Shown here one piece after another: positions 7,878-45,517 of a stretch of 64,000 nucleotides of DNA. The notes under the pieces were generated by a model. The model saw only the letters and a list, made by a program, of their open reading frames with translations. It did no database searches and had not been told where the DNA came from. Position 1 is the first letter of the stretch. Every line of letters begins with the position of its first letter. The DNA lies in assembly GCF_023525255.1 (NCBI RefSeq), contig NZ_CP073355.1, positions 1,116,001 through 1,180,000 of the forward strand. Reading direction: 5' to 3'. The translations under genes and the position numbers were made by a program. The DNA comes from Thermospira aquatica (GTDB taxonomy: Bacteria; Spirochaetota; Brevinematia; Brevinematales; Thermospiraceae).

Positions 7878-8894
7878 ATGGCACAGACTCACAAAAAGGT
7901 TACCATTTATGACGTTGCCAGGCTTGCCGGTGTAACGGCAGCTACTGTGTCTCGTGTTATCAACGGCAAAGCGAATGTTGCCCATGAGACAAGAGAAAGG
8001 GTGCTCAAGGCTATTGAGGAGCTTAACTATTATCCCTCCCCCCTTGCCTCCGGGCTTCATTCTCATCAATCCAATCAGATAGGGGTTCTCGTGCCGTTTT
8101 TCTTTGGTGAATTTTTTTACAAGGTACTTTCCCATATTTCTCAGGTGATACCTTTCCCTTATGAGTTGGTGCTTTATGACGCAGCTACCCCGGAGATCAA
8201 GACCCACACTCTTCAGAAGATTTTCGGTGAGAAAAAACTGAACGGTCTCATTGTGATTTCTCTTCCCCTTCTCAAAGAAGAAGCTTTTCTTGCCATGCAG
8301 TCAGGGCTCCCCCTTGTGCTCCTTGATAATGTACACCCCTCGTTTCCCTCTGTTTACTTTGATAATGTGATGGGGATGTTTCATGCCACCCAGCATCTTA
8401 TCAAACTGGGACATAGGCGGATTGCTCTTATCAATGGTGCCCATGAAGATCCCTTTCATCTTGAGGTAGCAAAACATCGGCACGAGGGATATCGACTTGC
8501 CTTTGATATGGCAAGGATACCCTTTGATCCGGGGATTATGTTTGTCAATGACTGGTCGAGAGCTGGCGCAAGATTTATTGCTCACAAGATTCTCAAGATG
8601 AAAAACCGACCCACGGCTATTATGTGCACCAGTGATCTCCAGGCGATTGGTGTTCTGGAAGCGTGTAAGGAAGCGGGTGTGGCTGTGCCGGAGGAGATCT
8701 CAGTCATGGGATATGATGATATGGATTTTGCCGACTTTTTTGGTCTTACGACAGTGCAACAGTCTTTTCAAACGATTGCTAAAATAGCCCTTGATATGCT
8801 TATGGAGCGGATAAATCAACCCGGGAGTAAGCCTGAGAAGGTTGCGCTCATGCCTACCCTTATCGTGAGGAAAACCACACGAGAACTGGTTTAG
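7878..8894 (+). CDS. LacI/GalR-family transcriptional regulator
   Basis: 338 aa. Residues 8-55 form the LacI helix-turn-helix (VTIYDVARLAGVTAATVSRV), followed by the hinge helix (YPSPLASGL). Residues about 65-335 are a periplasmic-binding-protein-like effector domain with the usual GYDDMDFADF and TTVQQSFQTIAKIA segments. Such proteins repress sugar-utilisation genes and are released by a small ligand. The ligand cannot be read from the sequence, and no sugar transporter lies next to it. The ATG at 7878 follows AAGGAG. An IS256-family element ends about 100 bp upstream without touching the promoter. Confidence 0.93.
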   Translation: MAQTHKKVTIYDVARLAGVTAATVSRVINGKANVAHETRERVLKAIEELNYYPSPLASGLHSHQSNQIGVLVPFFFGEFFYKVLSHISQVIPFPYELVLYDAATPEIKTHTLQKIFGEKKLNGLIVISLPLLKEEAFLAMQSGLPLVLLDNVHPSFPSVYFDNVMGMFHATQHLIKLGHRRIALINGAHEDPFHLEVAKHRHEGYRLAFDMARIPFDPGIMFVNDWSRAGARFIAHKILKMKNRPTAIMCTSDLQAIGVLEACKEAGVAVPEEISVMGYDDMDFADFFGLTTVQQSFQTIAKIALDMLMERINQPGSKPEKVALMPTLIVRKTTRELV

Positions 8895-32783: not shown

Positions 32784-32800
32784 TGCAATATTTGTGCCAA
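32784..32800 (-). promoter_or_regulatory. Sigma-54 (RpoN) promoter of amt-glnB
   Basis: On the minus strand TTGGCACAAATATTGCA: GG and GC are separated by exactly 10 nt, and the -24 (TTGGCAC) and -12 (TTGCA) elements match consensus. Transcription would start near 32773, about 24 nt before the amt ATG. Confidence 0.85.
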
Positions 32801-40960: not shown

Positions 40961-40990
40961 CCAGCCCCTTCTCTCAGGGGCTGGTTTTTT
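40961..40990 (+). terminator. Terminator after the TPR gene
   Basis: CCAGCCCC (40961-40968), an 8-nt loop, GGGGCTGG (40977-40984) and six T. Confidence 0.9.
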
Positions 40991-41057
40991 ATGGAGAGAG
41001 AGTATTGTTTTGTTTTTTCTTTTTCGAAAATGATTGTTCGCACGTATTCACCCCTGT

Positions 41058-41104
41058 ATTTCTGCACAATATTGCACACTGACTATGCAAAATTGTGCAG
41101 AAAT
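41058..41104. promoter_or_regulatory. Large inverted repeat, probable enhancer for the amylase promoter
   Basis: Arms of 19 nt (41058-41076 and 41086-41104) match at 18 of 19 positions around a 9-nt spacer. Each arm contains TCTGCACAAT and an ATTGCA-like half. The centre lies about 155 nt upstream of the predicted sigma-54 start, where bacterial enhancer-binding proteins usually bind. No terminator-like T-run is attached. Confidence 0.65.
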
Positions 41105-41207
41105 AATTCTGTAACCGATTTCTGTTTTTTTTCAGTTTTTCTTTTTATTTTCAATACGGAAAAGAAAATTTCTATGTAATTTTTGTTTTTTCTTTAAAAG
41201 AGAACCT

Positions 41208-41224
41208 TTGGCATGAATATTGCA
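41208..41224 (+). promoter_or_regulatory. Sigma-54 (RpoN) promoter of the alpha-amylase gene
   Basis: TTGGCATGAATATTGCA: GG (41210-41211) and GC (41222-41223) are exactly 10 nt apart, and the -24 and -12 boxes match consensus at nearly every position. The start would be near 41235, 28 nt before the ATG. Confidence 0.8.
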
Positions 41225-41262
41225 TATTTTTTATGAAAATTGACATAATTAAGGAGGTCTGT

Positions 41263-42672
41263 ATGAAACGGTTAGGGTTTTTGATGGTGGGGCTTCTGGT
41301 AGGAAGCTCGATGTTTGCTGGCGTGATGATGCAGGGTTTCTACTGGGATGTCCCGGCAGGTGGTAACTGGTACAATACCATGAAGAGTAAAGCCTATGGG
41401 CTTCGATATATGGTAGGGAGTGGTACAAAGTACGGTATTAACCGCATCTGGTTTCCTCCTGTATCCAAAGCTCAGGGTGGTGGCTATTCTATGGGATATG
41501 ATCCCCATGATTACTATGACCTGGGCCAATACTATCAGGACGGCACCACAGAAACGCGCTTTGGTTCCCAGGCAGAACTCAAGGCGGCTATTGCGCGGTA
41601 CCGTAGCTATGGCATTGATTGTATGGCTGATATCGTGATCAACCATCGCTCCGGTGGTGCCAGTGAGTACAACCCCTATACCGGTGGAAACACCTGGACA
41701 GATTTTCGTAATGTGGCAAGTGGAAAGGCAAAATGGCGGTACTGGGCATTCCATCCCAATAATATTCATTGGTATGATTCTGGCTCATTTGGTGGGTTCC
41801 CTGATGTGTGTCACGACAACTCGACGGTGTACAATGACATCAAAACGTGGATGAACTGGCTCAAGAGTACCGCAAATGCTGGTTTCAAGAGCTGGCGATG
41901 GGATTATGTCAAGGGATTCTCCCCCACTATTGTGAAGAATCTCAACGCAGCAACAAGTCCTACGTTTAGTGTGGGTGAGTATTGGGATGCCAATACTTCG
42001 ACACTTGATTGGTGGGCCAATGCCGCTAACTCGTCCGTATTTGACTTTGCTCTCTACTATACGCTCAAAGATATCTGTAACAATAGCTCAGGTGGTGGCT
42101 ATCTGCCCAATGTGTTTGACTATAGTAAGAGTTTTGCTGCCAAGAATCCATGGCGTGCCGTGACCTTTGTTGGAAACCATGACACTGATGAGATTTACAG
42201 AGACAAGATGATGGCGTATGCGTTCATTCTCACCTATCAAGGGTATCCCTGTATCTGGTGGAAAGACTACTACAACTATGGGTTGGCTACTGGTGGTGGT
42301 GCTGGCAGTGGTTGGGGAAATGGTATCAAACAGCTCGTATGGTGCCGAGAAAAGCTCGGTGGTGGAGGTCCTCAGATCGAAATCCTCAAGAGTAACGATG
42401 GAGATGTGATCATCTACGGAAGCAAGGGGTACTCTACCTCAAGTCCAGGGTATATTGTCGTGATCAATGACCATCCATCCCAGTGGAAGGGTGCATGGGT
42501 CCGGACAGGCAACAGCTATCTTAAGAACAAGACCCTCAAAGCTTATGCCTGGTCCTCAACGGTAAGTGGACAAAATGTGGCACCTCAGAATAAGTATTGC
42601 GATGGCAATGGTTGGGTAGAGGTATGGGCTGCACCGCGTGGGTATGCAGTCTACTCGGTTAACGGACTATAA
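41263..42672 (+). CDS. Secreted alpha-amylase, GH13 (archaeal GH13_7-like)
   Basis: 469 aa from the ATG at 41263 after AAGGAGG. A signal peptide (MKRLGFLMVGLLVGSSMFAG) is followed by a GH13 TIM barrel: GYDPHDYYDLGQYY, DIVINHR (first conserved region), nucleophile Asp214 in WRWDYVKGF, acid/base Glu239 in VGEYWD and transition-state Asp307 in GNHDTD. The short C-terminal beta domain completes the protein. The text matches recalled Pyrococcus/Thermococcus enzymes closely (MMQGFYWDVP, YSMGYDP, TETRFGS, ADIVINHR, TWTDF-VASGKA, FGG-PD-CHD), so subfamily GH13_7 and ancient transfer are inferred. It would hydrolyse starch outside the cell. Confidence 0.94.
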   Translation: MKRLGFLMVGLLVGSSMFAGVMMQGFYWDVPAGGNWYNTMKSKAYGLRYMVGSGTKYGINRIWFPPVSKAQGGGYSMGYDPHDYYDLGQYYQDGTTETRFGSQAELKAAIARYRSYGIDCMADIVINHRSGGASEYNPYTGGNTWTDFRNVASGKAKWRYWAFHPNNIHWYDSGSFGGFPDVCHDNSTVYNDIKTWMNWLKSTANAGFKSWRWDYVKGFSPTIVKNLNAATSPTFSVGEYWDANTSTLDWWANAANSSVFDFALYYTLKDICNNSSGGGYLPNVFDYSKSFAAKNPWRAVTFVGNHDTDEIYRDKMMAYAFILTYQGYPCIWWKDYYNYGLATGGGAGSGWGNGIKQLVWCREKLGGGGPQIEILKSNDGDVIIYGSKGYSTSSPGYIVVINDHPSQWKGAWVRTGNSYLKNKTLKAYAWSSTVSGQNVAPQNKYCDGNGWVEVWAAPRGYAVYSVNGL

Positions 42673-42691: not shown

Positions 42692-42723
42692 GGCTGTCCG
42701 GATTACCGGACAGCCTTTTTTTT
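42692..42723. terminator. Terminator between amylase and the LuxR-type gene
   Basis: GGCTGTCCGG (42692-42701), ATTA loop, CCGGACAGCC (42706-42715), then eight T. An A-rich left flank allows some activity on the minus strand too. Confidence 0.9.
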
Positions 42724-42742: not shown

Positions 42743-45517
42743 CTAAGGCAGTAATTTTCCATGAAAACGCTGAATAAGCTGGTAACGCTTTTGTACTCCG
42801 AGCTTTTTGAATATGCGCTTGATGTGACCTTTAACTGTTTCTTCAGTGATTGCAAGGTGCTGAGCAATCTCTGCATTGGATTTTCCGTCGACGATCAGGG
42901 TAAAAACCCTTTTTTCTGTCTCTGTGAGGGCTGAGAGATCGACGGAAGGGGAAGCTTCCCGGATCTGGAGGACAGGAGGTTTTGTTTCCAGCTCTTGAAG
43001 TTCTGCAAAGAACTCTTTTAAGGAATGAGAAAAAACCGAAAGTCTCTGGAGGAAAAGCCAGAGAGATTCTTTCTCTTGTTGTGAAGCTTGCACGTCAAAG
43101 AAAAAGAGCATAGCCTCATTATTTAAAAAGAAAAGGAGTACCTCTTTTTCAAAGACTTCGTCTTTTTTGTTATGAAAGTAGGCTTGTACTTTTTTAAATT
43201 TAAAGGGTGTTGGAGATGGAAATAAAAGATGACGTACCAGGCCGCTCTCTTTGATCATCTGGGATAAAAATATACTTTGATGAGCCTGGAATCGGAACAC
43301 ATCAAAGATTTTAGGATGCCATTCAAGGACATTTCCTTCGTGGTTGACAACCACCCAGGGAATAGGAAAACCTGTCAAAATCTGGTAAAAACGTTTGTAC
43401 GTTTCGGTATTTTCCTTTCCCAGACCGATGACAATGGAAAGGAAGCTATCATAGCTAATAATAGCAATCCTTTCTCCTGTTTCGAGAGTGAGAAGAGAAT
43501 TTTGTTTGATGGGAAGGGGAAGAGAAGGATGAAATGGTTGTTGGGATGCTACCGTATTTTTCAGGATAATCTTGCCGCTTCTTTCAACGAGAAGCACAGG
43601 GAGGGGCGAGGACTCAAGCCATACCCATGGTGAAGTAAAAGAAGCTTCTTGGAAGGGTATGAGATACATAACAGCATAAGGAGTATTTTTAACAATAACC
43701 CTGTAACACTGAAGTGTAAACCAGACGATGTTTTGTGCTTGTCGAAGAGGTACAGAAAATGAACAGAAACTTACCTCTTGCTGGTTTTCTTGTTGTTTCA
43801 AAAGAAAATAGAGGTCTTTGGAGTAGGCTGCATCGACTTTTTCAAGGAATTCAGAGAAAAGTCCTTCATGAAAAGGGATAAGCTTCTCAAATTGACTGTT
43901 CCAGTTGGAGAATTCTAACGTTTGTAGATTGAGGATGGCCATAGGAAACGGTGTTTCGTTGAAAAGGATCTGTATACTCTGTTGGTAGGAAGAAAGGTCG
44001 TTTCGCATGGCAACAAGTTGAGAAACATCCCTCGCAATACATCGATAACCTTCTATCTGATTGTTCCGTATAAGGGGGGTGGTGGCTACCTCGAGGAGAA
44101 GAGATTTTTTTTCGCGAGATATGGCGAGGAGATGACCGGAAAGCATCCCTTTACTCTGGTTAAGGGCTTGTTTAAAATAGAGAGTGGCTTCTTTTCCCAC
44201 AATATATTCGATAGGCTTATGGAGAACATTATCAGCTGAAAGATTGAAAAAACTCTCAATTCTTGGAGAAGTGTAGGTTATTTTCAGGCGAGCATCCATC
44301 TCCCATATCCAGTCTGAAAGATTGTCAACAAGCTCCTGGTATTGCCGTTGTTGATTTTCATATAGCCTGGCAAGCTCTGATTTCTGAGCTGTTTCCTTTT
44401 GCAGCTTGTGGACTGTTTCTTGAAGTTTTTTATTACTCTGGGCGAGGTGGCTTTTAAGGAGACGGTTTGTATTTTGATAAAACTGATAGAGTGACCTATC
44501 AAAGTAGATTTCCTGAGCGAATTCCCAGCATTCTCGTGCAAGATAAGCGAGAAGTCCAATCGCCATAAGCCAGGGGAAGATAGGGGAAAACGGTGTCCAG
44601 AGTCCCATCATCTCCCAGAAAAAGCCTATGCCTGTGAGAGCAAAAAAGACATGCCAGGGAAGAAAATTTCGATGAGTCGATGCCTGGTGATAAAAAATAA
44701 GAAGAATGAGCTGAAAATGAAGAGAAATACCGAAAAGAAAAAAACCGAGAGAATCATTTCTCCATCCTACTATAACCATGGTAAATAGGAGGAATATGAG
44801 AATGCTATGAAGCGCTATCATATCTGGTCGGTGAAGTTCCTGGTGGGTGAGAAGCTGGTAGAGTGTCCATGATACTCCAAAAACAGCCATGATCGAGAGC
44901 AACAGGGGAATAGAATGTTCTCCCGGAGAAATGATCAAAGCGGTGAGAATAGCAAGAAGAACAAAATTTATAGCTTTCCAGAGACGTTTGAGGTTTTGAG
45001 TACGAACAGCCCATAAAAAATACCAGACGAGAAGGGCAAGAACAATCCCACCGATTATTCCTGCAAACGTGAAAATAATAATTTGTTGCGAGATGAAATT
45101 TTCCATTTCCATAATTTTTGGAGTAATGATCAGAGGATGACCTTTTATTTCAAGAAGAAAGACAGAAGAGTTTTTGCCGGAGGGTATGATGAAGAAATTG
45201 GGGCTGGATTTTAACTCCAGAGGGGTGATTAAGCCGTTTTCATCGTAAAGAAAAGCCCTTTGAATAGGAGACCATTTTGTGCCATTAAAGAGAACGTATT
45301 GGGTATTTGAAGAGAGTCCATGGACCTCAACTTGTATCCAATGATTTTTCCCCATCCAGCCACTAAAAAAGAAGGGTTTCGAAAGCTTTAGTGCAGGTGT
45401 TTCGCGTATCATGAGAGAAAAATCACTCCCCGCTGCTATGAGGGAGGTGGTAATTTGGACAGCACAAGCAGTTTTCCACAAGAGGAATAAAAGGAGAAAA
45501 AGCCAACTTTTCTTCAT
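42743..45517 (-). CDS. Membrane-embedded one-component regulator: exported sensor, membrane helices, PAS domains, LuxR helix-turn-helix
   Basis: 924 aa. Signal peptide 1-19, an extracytoplasmic beta-rich domain about 25-140, seven to eight transmembrane helices about 145-340 (7TMR-DISM-like), a coiled coil about 345-405 (NRLLKSHLAQSNKKLQETVHKLQKE) and PAS domains from about 410 (YQELVDNLSDWIWEMDARLKITYTSPRI). The C-terminal 65 residues are a LuxR/FixJ helix-turn-helix (LTETEKRVFTLIVDGKSNAEIAQHLAITEETVKGHIKRIFKKLGV). There is no kinase or receiver domain, so it must sense and bind DNA in one chain anchored in the membrane. The promoter places transcription at or next to the ATG, giving a probably leaderless mRNA. 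Confidence 0.88.
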   Translation of the reverse strand: MKKSWLFLLLFLLWKTACAVQITTSLIAAGSDFSLMIRETPALKLSKPFFFSGWMGKNHWIQVEVHGLSSNTQYVLFNGTKWSPIQRAFLYDENGLITPLELKSSPNFFIIPSGKNSSVFLLEIKGHPLIITPKIMEMENFISQQIIIFTFAGIIGGIVLALLVWYFLWAVRTQNLKRLWKAINFVLLAILTALIISPGEHSIPLLLSIMAVFGVSWTLYQLLTHQELHRPDMIALHSILIFLLFTMVIVGWRNDSLGFFLFGISLHFQLILLIFYHQASTHRNFLPWHVFFALTGIGFFWEMMGLWTPFSPIFPWLMAIGLLAYLARECWEFAQEIYFDRSLYQFYQNTNRLLKSHLAQSNKKLQETVHKLQKETAQKSELARLYENQQRQYQELVDNLSDWIWEMDARLKITYTSPRIESFFNLSADNVLHKPIEYIVGKEATLYFKQALNQSKGMLSGHLLAISREKKSLLLEVATTPLIRNNQIEGYRCIARDVSQLVAMRNDLSSYQQSIQILFNETPFPMAILNLQTLEFSNWNSQFEKLIPFHEGLFSEFLEKVDAAYSKDLYFLLKQQENQQEVSFCSFSVPLRQAQNIVWFTLQCYRVIVKNTPYAVMYLIPFQEASFTSPWVWLESSPLPVLLVERSGKIILKNTVASQQPFHPSLPLPIKQNSLLTLETGERIAIISYDSFLSIVIGLGKENTETYKRFYQILTGFPIPWVVVNHEGNVLEWHPKIFDVFRFQAHQSIFLSQMIKESGLVRHLLFPSPTPFKFKKVQAYFHNKKDEVFEKEVLLFFLNNEAMLFFFDVQASQQEKESLWLFLQRLSVFSHSLKEFFAELQELETKPPVLQIREASPSVDLSALTETEKRVFTLIVDGKSNAEIAQHLAITEETVKGHIKRIFKKLGVQKRYQLIQRFHGKLLP

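Follow-up and report, generated by a model that had tools for sequence, protein, structure and literature searches.

A sigma-54 box and TGCA-rich putative enhancer conserved before alpha-amylase genes of Thermospira aquatica and its relatives, and a probable new small RNA with the same promoter layout

The window analyzed here is a stretch of 64,000 nucleotides, bases 1116001-1180000 of one 2.515-Mb contig of the spirochaete Thermospira aquatica (Brevinematales), and includes the gene for an alpha-amylase with an intergenic region upstream of it (Table 1). The catalytic domain of the encoded protein is recognized by Pfam (44.5 bits, cutoff 22) and also matches NCBIfam alpha-amylase models, with scores below their cutoffs. 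Terminator-like hairpins lie on both sides of the unit formed by the intergenic region and the gene; the next gene downstream (42743-45517), which has a LuxR-type HTH at its end, is on the minus strand.

Table 1. Features of the amylase locus (window coordinates) and of the candidate small RNA (genome coordinates)
Feature	Position	Strand	Details
Terminator-like hairpin of preceding gene	40961-40990	+	sequence; isolates the amylase promoter region
Inverted repeat, putative enhancer	41057-41105		arms 41057-41076 and 41086-41105, 20 nt, 19/20 paired, 9-nt spacer
TGCA-N6-TGCA-N9-TGCA-N6-TGCA core	41063-41099		TGCA at 41063, 41073, 41086, 41096
LacI/cre-like operator TGTAACCGATTTCT	41110-41123	+	between enhancer and promoter, -125 to -112
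Sigma-54 -24/-12 box TGGCATGaataTTGCA / TGGCATGAATATTGCA	41209-41224	+	0 mismatches to TGGCAYGN4TTGCW; conserved across class
Predicted transcription start (+1)	41235	+	12 nt after C(-12) at 41223
Ribosome binding site AAGGAGG	41251-41257	+	sequence
GH13 alpha-amylase, 469 aa, signal-peptide-like N-terminus	41263-42672	+	Pfam PF00128
Intrinsic-terminator-like hairpin and T run after amylase	42692-42723	+	sequence; inverted repeat
Candidate ~56-nt sigma-54-dependent RNA	genome 1090466-1090522 (L012:1527-1583); L264, L275 near 1527		predicted +1 1090466

The sequence-only reading of this region had reported a near-consensus -24/-12 promoter 28 nt before the end of the amylase leader, and this element proved to be a perfect sigma-54 box, with the GG and GC dinucleotides 10 bp apart. 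It is the sole exact match to the consensus in the window and one of 7 in the 2.515-Mb genome. When one mismatch is allowed, the genome contains 45 matches, compared to 16 for the reversed control pattern; many of the one-mismatch matches are intragenic, so that context matters, and the amylase box is intergenic (several loose matches inside genes were set aside). Dinucleotide shuffling of the intergenic sequence, repeated 300 times, never produced a match with fewer than 2 mismatches. All genome-wide tests were pattern searches, with the box and the enhancer judged by consensus. Because the C of the -12 element is at 41223, transcription is predicted to start at 41235, giving a leader of 28 nt before the ATG at 41263; an in-frame upstream ATG at 41233 precedes the predicted start.

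The inverted repeat, previously described as having 19-bp arms (18/19 paired) and being centered about 155 nt upstream, is real and slightly larger, by one base pair per arm, with its center near 41081, 154 nt before the predicted start, and a span of -178 to -130, that is, judged as sequence only, within the range of about 80-200 bp upstream expected of an enhancer-like element. The longest comparable arm among 100 shuffles was 11 nt (mean 6.3) versus the 20 nt observed. The genome-wide search for the repeat that had been proposed found no other place matching the 18-nt arm core with fewer than 3 mismatches. The sequence-only reading had missed the substructure of the arms, together with the LacI/cre-like operator and the regulon. 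The genome contains the strict arrangement TGCA-N6-TGCA-N(5-20)-TGCA-N6-TGCA twice, before the amylase gene and at 1090311-1090349, and the reversed control gave no match. Both strict motifs lie 91-110 bp before an exact sigma-54 box, and in this genome the motif is found only before such boxes; given 7 exact boxes in 2.5 Mb, we estimate the chance of a motif-box association within ~200 bp at about 1 in 1000. Across 14 genomes, the pattern TTGCACNA...TGCANNNTNGTGCAA was found in the amylase promoters of 4 genomes and at one further place in genome G015, beside a GH13-like fragment.

Between the enhancer and the promoter lies a palindromic site of the TGWAANCGNTTNCW type with a central CG and one imperfect half (TTTCT), which fits the pattern TGWAANCGATTNCW; this pattern occurs at only 4 places in the genome, 3 of them upstream of amylase genes. 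The site is kept in the congeners, and in family f5 a different palindrome, ACCAAAATATTTTGGT, occupies the same position. We infer that it is a repressor site for a LacI-family protein. The genome encodes two proteins of this family, neither adjoining starch genes; the gene of one of them (L099, window 7878-8894), a candidate for the cre-like sites, is located beside transposase remnants.

Within its own genome the amylase is accompanied by a paralogue with 93% identity (L092), and relatives occur in families f1, f2 (another family of the order) and f5 (another family of the class), with the copy number varying between relatives. Of 17 amylase loci examined in the class, 14 carry a recognizable sigma-54 box (0-3 mismatches, GG and GC kept), in most cases at a distance of 25-40 nt from the start codon; the larger apparent distances at 4 of the 14 reflect tblastn matches that begin inside the gene. 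At the other three loci (the paralogue L092, L079 and L080), a -24-like half is kept and the GC at -12 is absent. The box is retained in three families while the flanks diverge. Between -300 and -70, 16 promoters of the class together contain 68 TGCA tetramers, against 23.9 ± 4.0 in dinucleotide shuffles (largest value 39), the commonest spacings being 10 and 23 bp, whereas promoters outside the class contain 46, against 42.6 ± 5.8 shuffled. Among ~48 amylase homologues from outside the class, including Gracilinema/Treponema, Calditrichia, Verrucomicrobia and Chloroflexi, the sigma-54 box is generally missing or no better than expected by chance, with two-mismatch matches at L216 and L222. In three families of the class, most amylase orthologues are preceded by both the box and a TGCA-rich enhancer. 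A 76% identical amylase, without a sigma-54 box, is encoded on a contig labelled Clostridia SKW257 (L198, JAOAEJ010000052.1), which may reflect horizontal transfer or misbinning.

Other starch genes of the genome carry parts of this layout. Scattered TGCA and a one-mismatch sigma-54 box, the latter conserved in both congeners, are found at the gene for a 1161-aa lipoprotein with CBM20 and GH13 domains. Two further lipoprotein genes are without a sigma-54 box: that of a 1306-aa CBM26/GH13 protein (from 2220055), where a TGCA cluster and a cre-like site lie immediately ahead of the start, and that of an 824-aa amylase-like protein, which carries a TGCA palindrome together with a TATAAT-like element. 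Starch genes are thus marked by TGCA more widely than by sigma-54.

The second strict TGCA motif closely follows the stop codon of a gene of the glycogen-debranching type (CBM48 and GH13) and lies 91 bp ahead of an exact sigma-54 box at genome position 1090440. There is no open reading frame between this promoter and the GC-rich hairpin and T run, an intrinsic terminator, into which the predicted RNA would run after ~56 nt. The same arrangement follows the end of the corresponding gene in both congeners (G001 and G002), and the ~56-nt block is near-invariant in the three species, while both flanks diverge. The conserved block begins exactly at the predicted start, which provides an independent check of the geometry used to place the start relative to the box. 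The RNA folds with -22.3 kcal/mol versus -12.95 for shuffled sequences (z = -4.2) and displays two CCCCC stretches, in the 5' tail and in the hairpin loop. No Rfam gathering score was reached (for example, tfoR with 21.9 against 70 bits, in one of the three species), and with only such sub-threshold matches, it is not a member of a known small RNA family. The genes that follow are an rpoZ-like gene and miaA, with their own TTGACA-type promoter, in the window genome and a deformylase-like gene in G002; given the different downstream genes and the separate promoter, the unit is unlikely to be a leader, and a tie to miaA was rejected because the synteny is not conserved. The combination of a sigma-54 promoter, a short non-coding unit, an intrinsic terminator and conservation points to a probable new sigma-54-dependent small RNA of ~56 nt. 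Pairing of its tail with amylase leaders (-10.7 to -12.4 kcal/mol) mostly involves the Shine-Dalgarno sequence and was not used as evidence.

The genome does encode rpoN, on the presence of which the sequence-only reading had made its proposal depend, with all three domains (TIGR02395, 370 bits, cutoff 277), and the search that it had suggested for enhancer-binding proteins with a GAFTGA motif recovered four, all with HTH_8. One (L002) has two GAF domains, and its gene is divergent from the type III glutamine synthetase gene glnN; the second (L003) has a receiver domain and is AtoC-like; the third (L004) has a receiver domain, is NtrX-like and is encoded after an NtrY-like kinase; and the fourth (L005) lacks a regulatory domain and is encoded downstream of rpoN on the same strand. 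A further three proteins that match PF00158 more weakly (26-34 bits) presumably represent other AAA+ ATPases. Together with the retention of box and enhancer across the class, this machinery strongly supports the earlier proposal of sigma-54 control of the amylase. The accompanying notion of a dedicated activator is not supported: no activator gene adjoins the amylase gene, a tree of 65 sequences assigns all four proteins to orthologous groups shared class-wide, and the conserved small-RNA promoter has the enhancer motif as well, as do other starch genes in looser form.

Which of the four would act here can be narrowed. The GAF-type protein L002 is disfavored because its gene lies beside glnN and because G015 (95% complete), a genome with two TGCA-type amylase promoters, yielded no copy of it; the TGCA activator would then be L003, L004 or L005. 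The match of L003 to the AtoC model (516.7 bits) is below the cutoff of 714, its C-terminal domain is equally ZraR-like, and that of L005 is NtrC-like; TGCA is also present in the NtrC sites that precede E. coli glnA. Two genomes with TGCA-type amylase promoters, G011 (73% complete) and G017 (82%), yielded no member of the L003 group, which may be explained by incompleteness. Neither the L003 gene nor the L004 operon is preceded by a TGCA pair, so autoregulation of these activators was rejected. As a rough judgement from sequence, L003 would be the first choice, if a tentative one, followed by L005 as a possible candidate; L004 appears unlikely and L002 very improbable. In family f4, where no related amylase occurs, a single short enhancer-binding protein (390-414 aa; L131, L149, L150, L151) ends without an HTH and groups weakly with the L003 group.

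Other sigma-54 promoters of the genus have motifs of different classes. The GTATAC class comprises a sigma-70-family factor gene and lpxC, and TTTTGTATACAAAA-like palindromes precede the sigma-54 boxes of these genes (L010, L016, L260, L262, L263, L273), apparently a second enhancer class common to the three species. GTATC/GATAC-like elements lie upstream of the conserved sigma-54 boxes of hsp20 and of the gene for a second sigma factor (L014, L015, L261, L268). The nitrogen genes glnN and amtB form a further class; in the window, a one-mismatch box (32784-32799, minus strand), conserved in G001, lies before an amtB-glnK-like pair. About 80 identical copies of TTTCTGCTCAACGTAGCA are scattered over the 2.5-Mb genome (e.g. 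L041, L043, L046, L064), in the frame of a transposase-like ORF that has multiplied strongly and is often decayed.

Sigma-54 is best known for its roles in nitrogen metabolism, flagella and stress. In the spirochaete Borrelia, the RpoN-RpoS pathway, with Rrp2, is a sigma-54 system controlling another sigma factor; here, two sigma-70-family factor genes have sigma-54 boxes, so that, by analogy, a similar cascade is possible, although the enhancer logic differs, and we know of no starch branch of the Borrelia pathway. A sigma-54-controlled alpha-amylase was not found in the open-access full texts searched, although a precedent may exist elsewhere, and neither "amylase" nor "starch" appears in the sigma-54 regulon surveys PMC12316311 and PMC6615313, or in PMC3162934. 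The closest parallel to the enhancer itself is E. coli atoDAEB, where the AtoC enhancer was verified as two inverted 20-bp sites of a sigma-54 promoter (PMC3118216). As at the amylase gene, which has two inverted ~20-bp sites, each site is TGCA-N6-TGCA, located upstream of the sigma-54 box, and L003 is AtoC-like; however, atoDAEB serves the use of short-chain fatty acids rather than starch, its activator is encoded beside the target, and the arm sequences differ. In function, the nearest precedents are the levanase operon of Bacillus subtilis under LevR (cited in PMC6510779) and CbrB-CrcZ of Pseudomonas, where CbrAB, a sigma-54 carbon-use activator system, drives the small RNAs CrcZ and CrcY along with protein genes (PMC6296734). 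The levanase is an exo-polysaccharide-degrading enzyme under SigL (sigma-54) with an upstream enhancer, but LevR is a PTS-controlled activator of another architecture, and the substrate is levan rather than starch. The Pseudomonas system likewise places a small RNA and protein genes under a single sigma-54 carbon-use system, but the CbrB subsites are non-palindromic and of the TGTTAC type, and we found no sequence relationship to the small RNA described here. CrcZ is also a much longer RNA than the ~56-nt one.

The intergenic region is, with high probability, a sigma-54 control region that places the amylase and the small RNA in one starch/glucan regulon, and sigma-54 control of the amylase itself is very likely; the sequence is best read as a sigma-54 starch regulon specific to the class, in which the amylase and a probable new small RNA would share one enhancer-binding activator, with LacI-type control probable as well. 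The amylase could instead be transcribed from an ordinary sigma-70 promoter, the sigma-54 match being fortuitous or a relic. The loss of the -12 GC in L092 suggests that sigma-54 control can be dispensable for a near-identical gene, and the two lipoprotein genes without a box look sigma-70-dependent; a zero-mismatch box at a fitting distance, kept in three families despite diverging flanks and never approached in shuffles, makes this explanation highly improbable. A different possibility is that sigma-54 does read the promoter but that a separate regulator, one that senses starch and does not belong to the enhancer-binding proteins, uses the TGCA repeat as its operator, with the sigma-54 activator binding elsewhere or acting from solution. 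The wider distribution of TGCA than of sigma-54 boxes at starch genes is our main reason for keeping this alternative: TGCA clusters precede two amylase-family lipoprotein genes that have TATAAT-like elements and no box, so the factor recognizing TGCA need not be a sigma-54 activator, and the missing TGCA pair before the L003 gene and the L004 operon fits as well. It is nonetheless unlikely, because the position and the double inverted geometry match sigma-54 enhancers such as that of atoDAEB, the strict paired motif occurs in the genome only before exact boxes, and TGCA enrichment tracks the class that has the box.

For the second site, a remnant of a lost amylase-gene promoter followed by a terminator, with no small RNA gene, would account for the lack of an ORF and would agree with the variable amylase copy number among relatives. 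However, such a remnant would hardly be expected to preserve a near-invariant block between diverging flanks in three species, starting at the predicted +1, to fold so stably, or to keep its form with different genes downstream in the window genome and G002; we consider this explanation improbable, a little more so than that of the separate TGCA regulator.

Under the sigma-54 regulon reading, RNA polymerase with sigma-54 would occupy the -24/-12 box as a closed complex, and an enhancer-binding ATPase would bind the TGCA inverted repeat as two inverted dimers, loop onto the box and open the promoter. A LacI-family protein at the cre-like site probably limits activation according to sugar supply, and the same enhancer type would drive the short conserved RNA after the debranching-type gene. 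What the sequence itself displays is the box and the enhancer with their conservation, rpoN and the genes of four activators, and, at the second site, another enhancer with its RNA unit; we infer binding, looping and repression, the choice of activator (L003, L004 or L005, with L002 disfavored) and the role of the small RNA.

On balance, it appears somewhat probable that, in Brevinematia, a single TGCA-enhancer activator couples secreted amylases to a ~56-nt C-rich small RNA, a system that would resemble CbrB-CrcZ in function and would have been built independently. An extracellular starch enzyme and a conserved small RNA have a common sigma-54 enhancer layout in a mostly uncultured class of spirochaetes. 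This amounts to a small, testable network of one sigma factor, four activators and about four enhancer motifs, with a probable new small RNA for which the exact 5' nucleotide is predicted.
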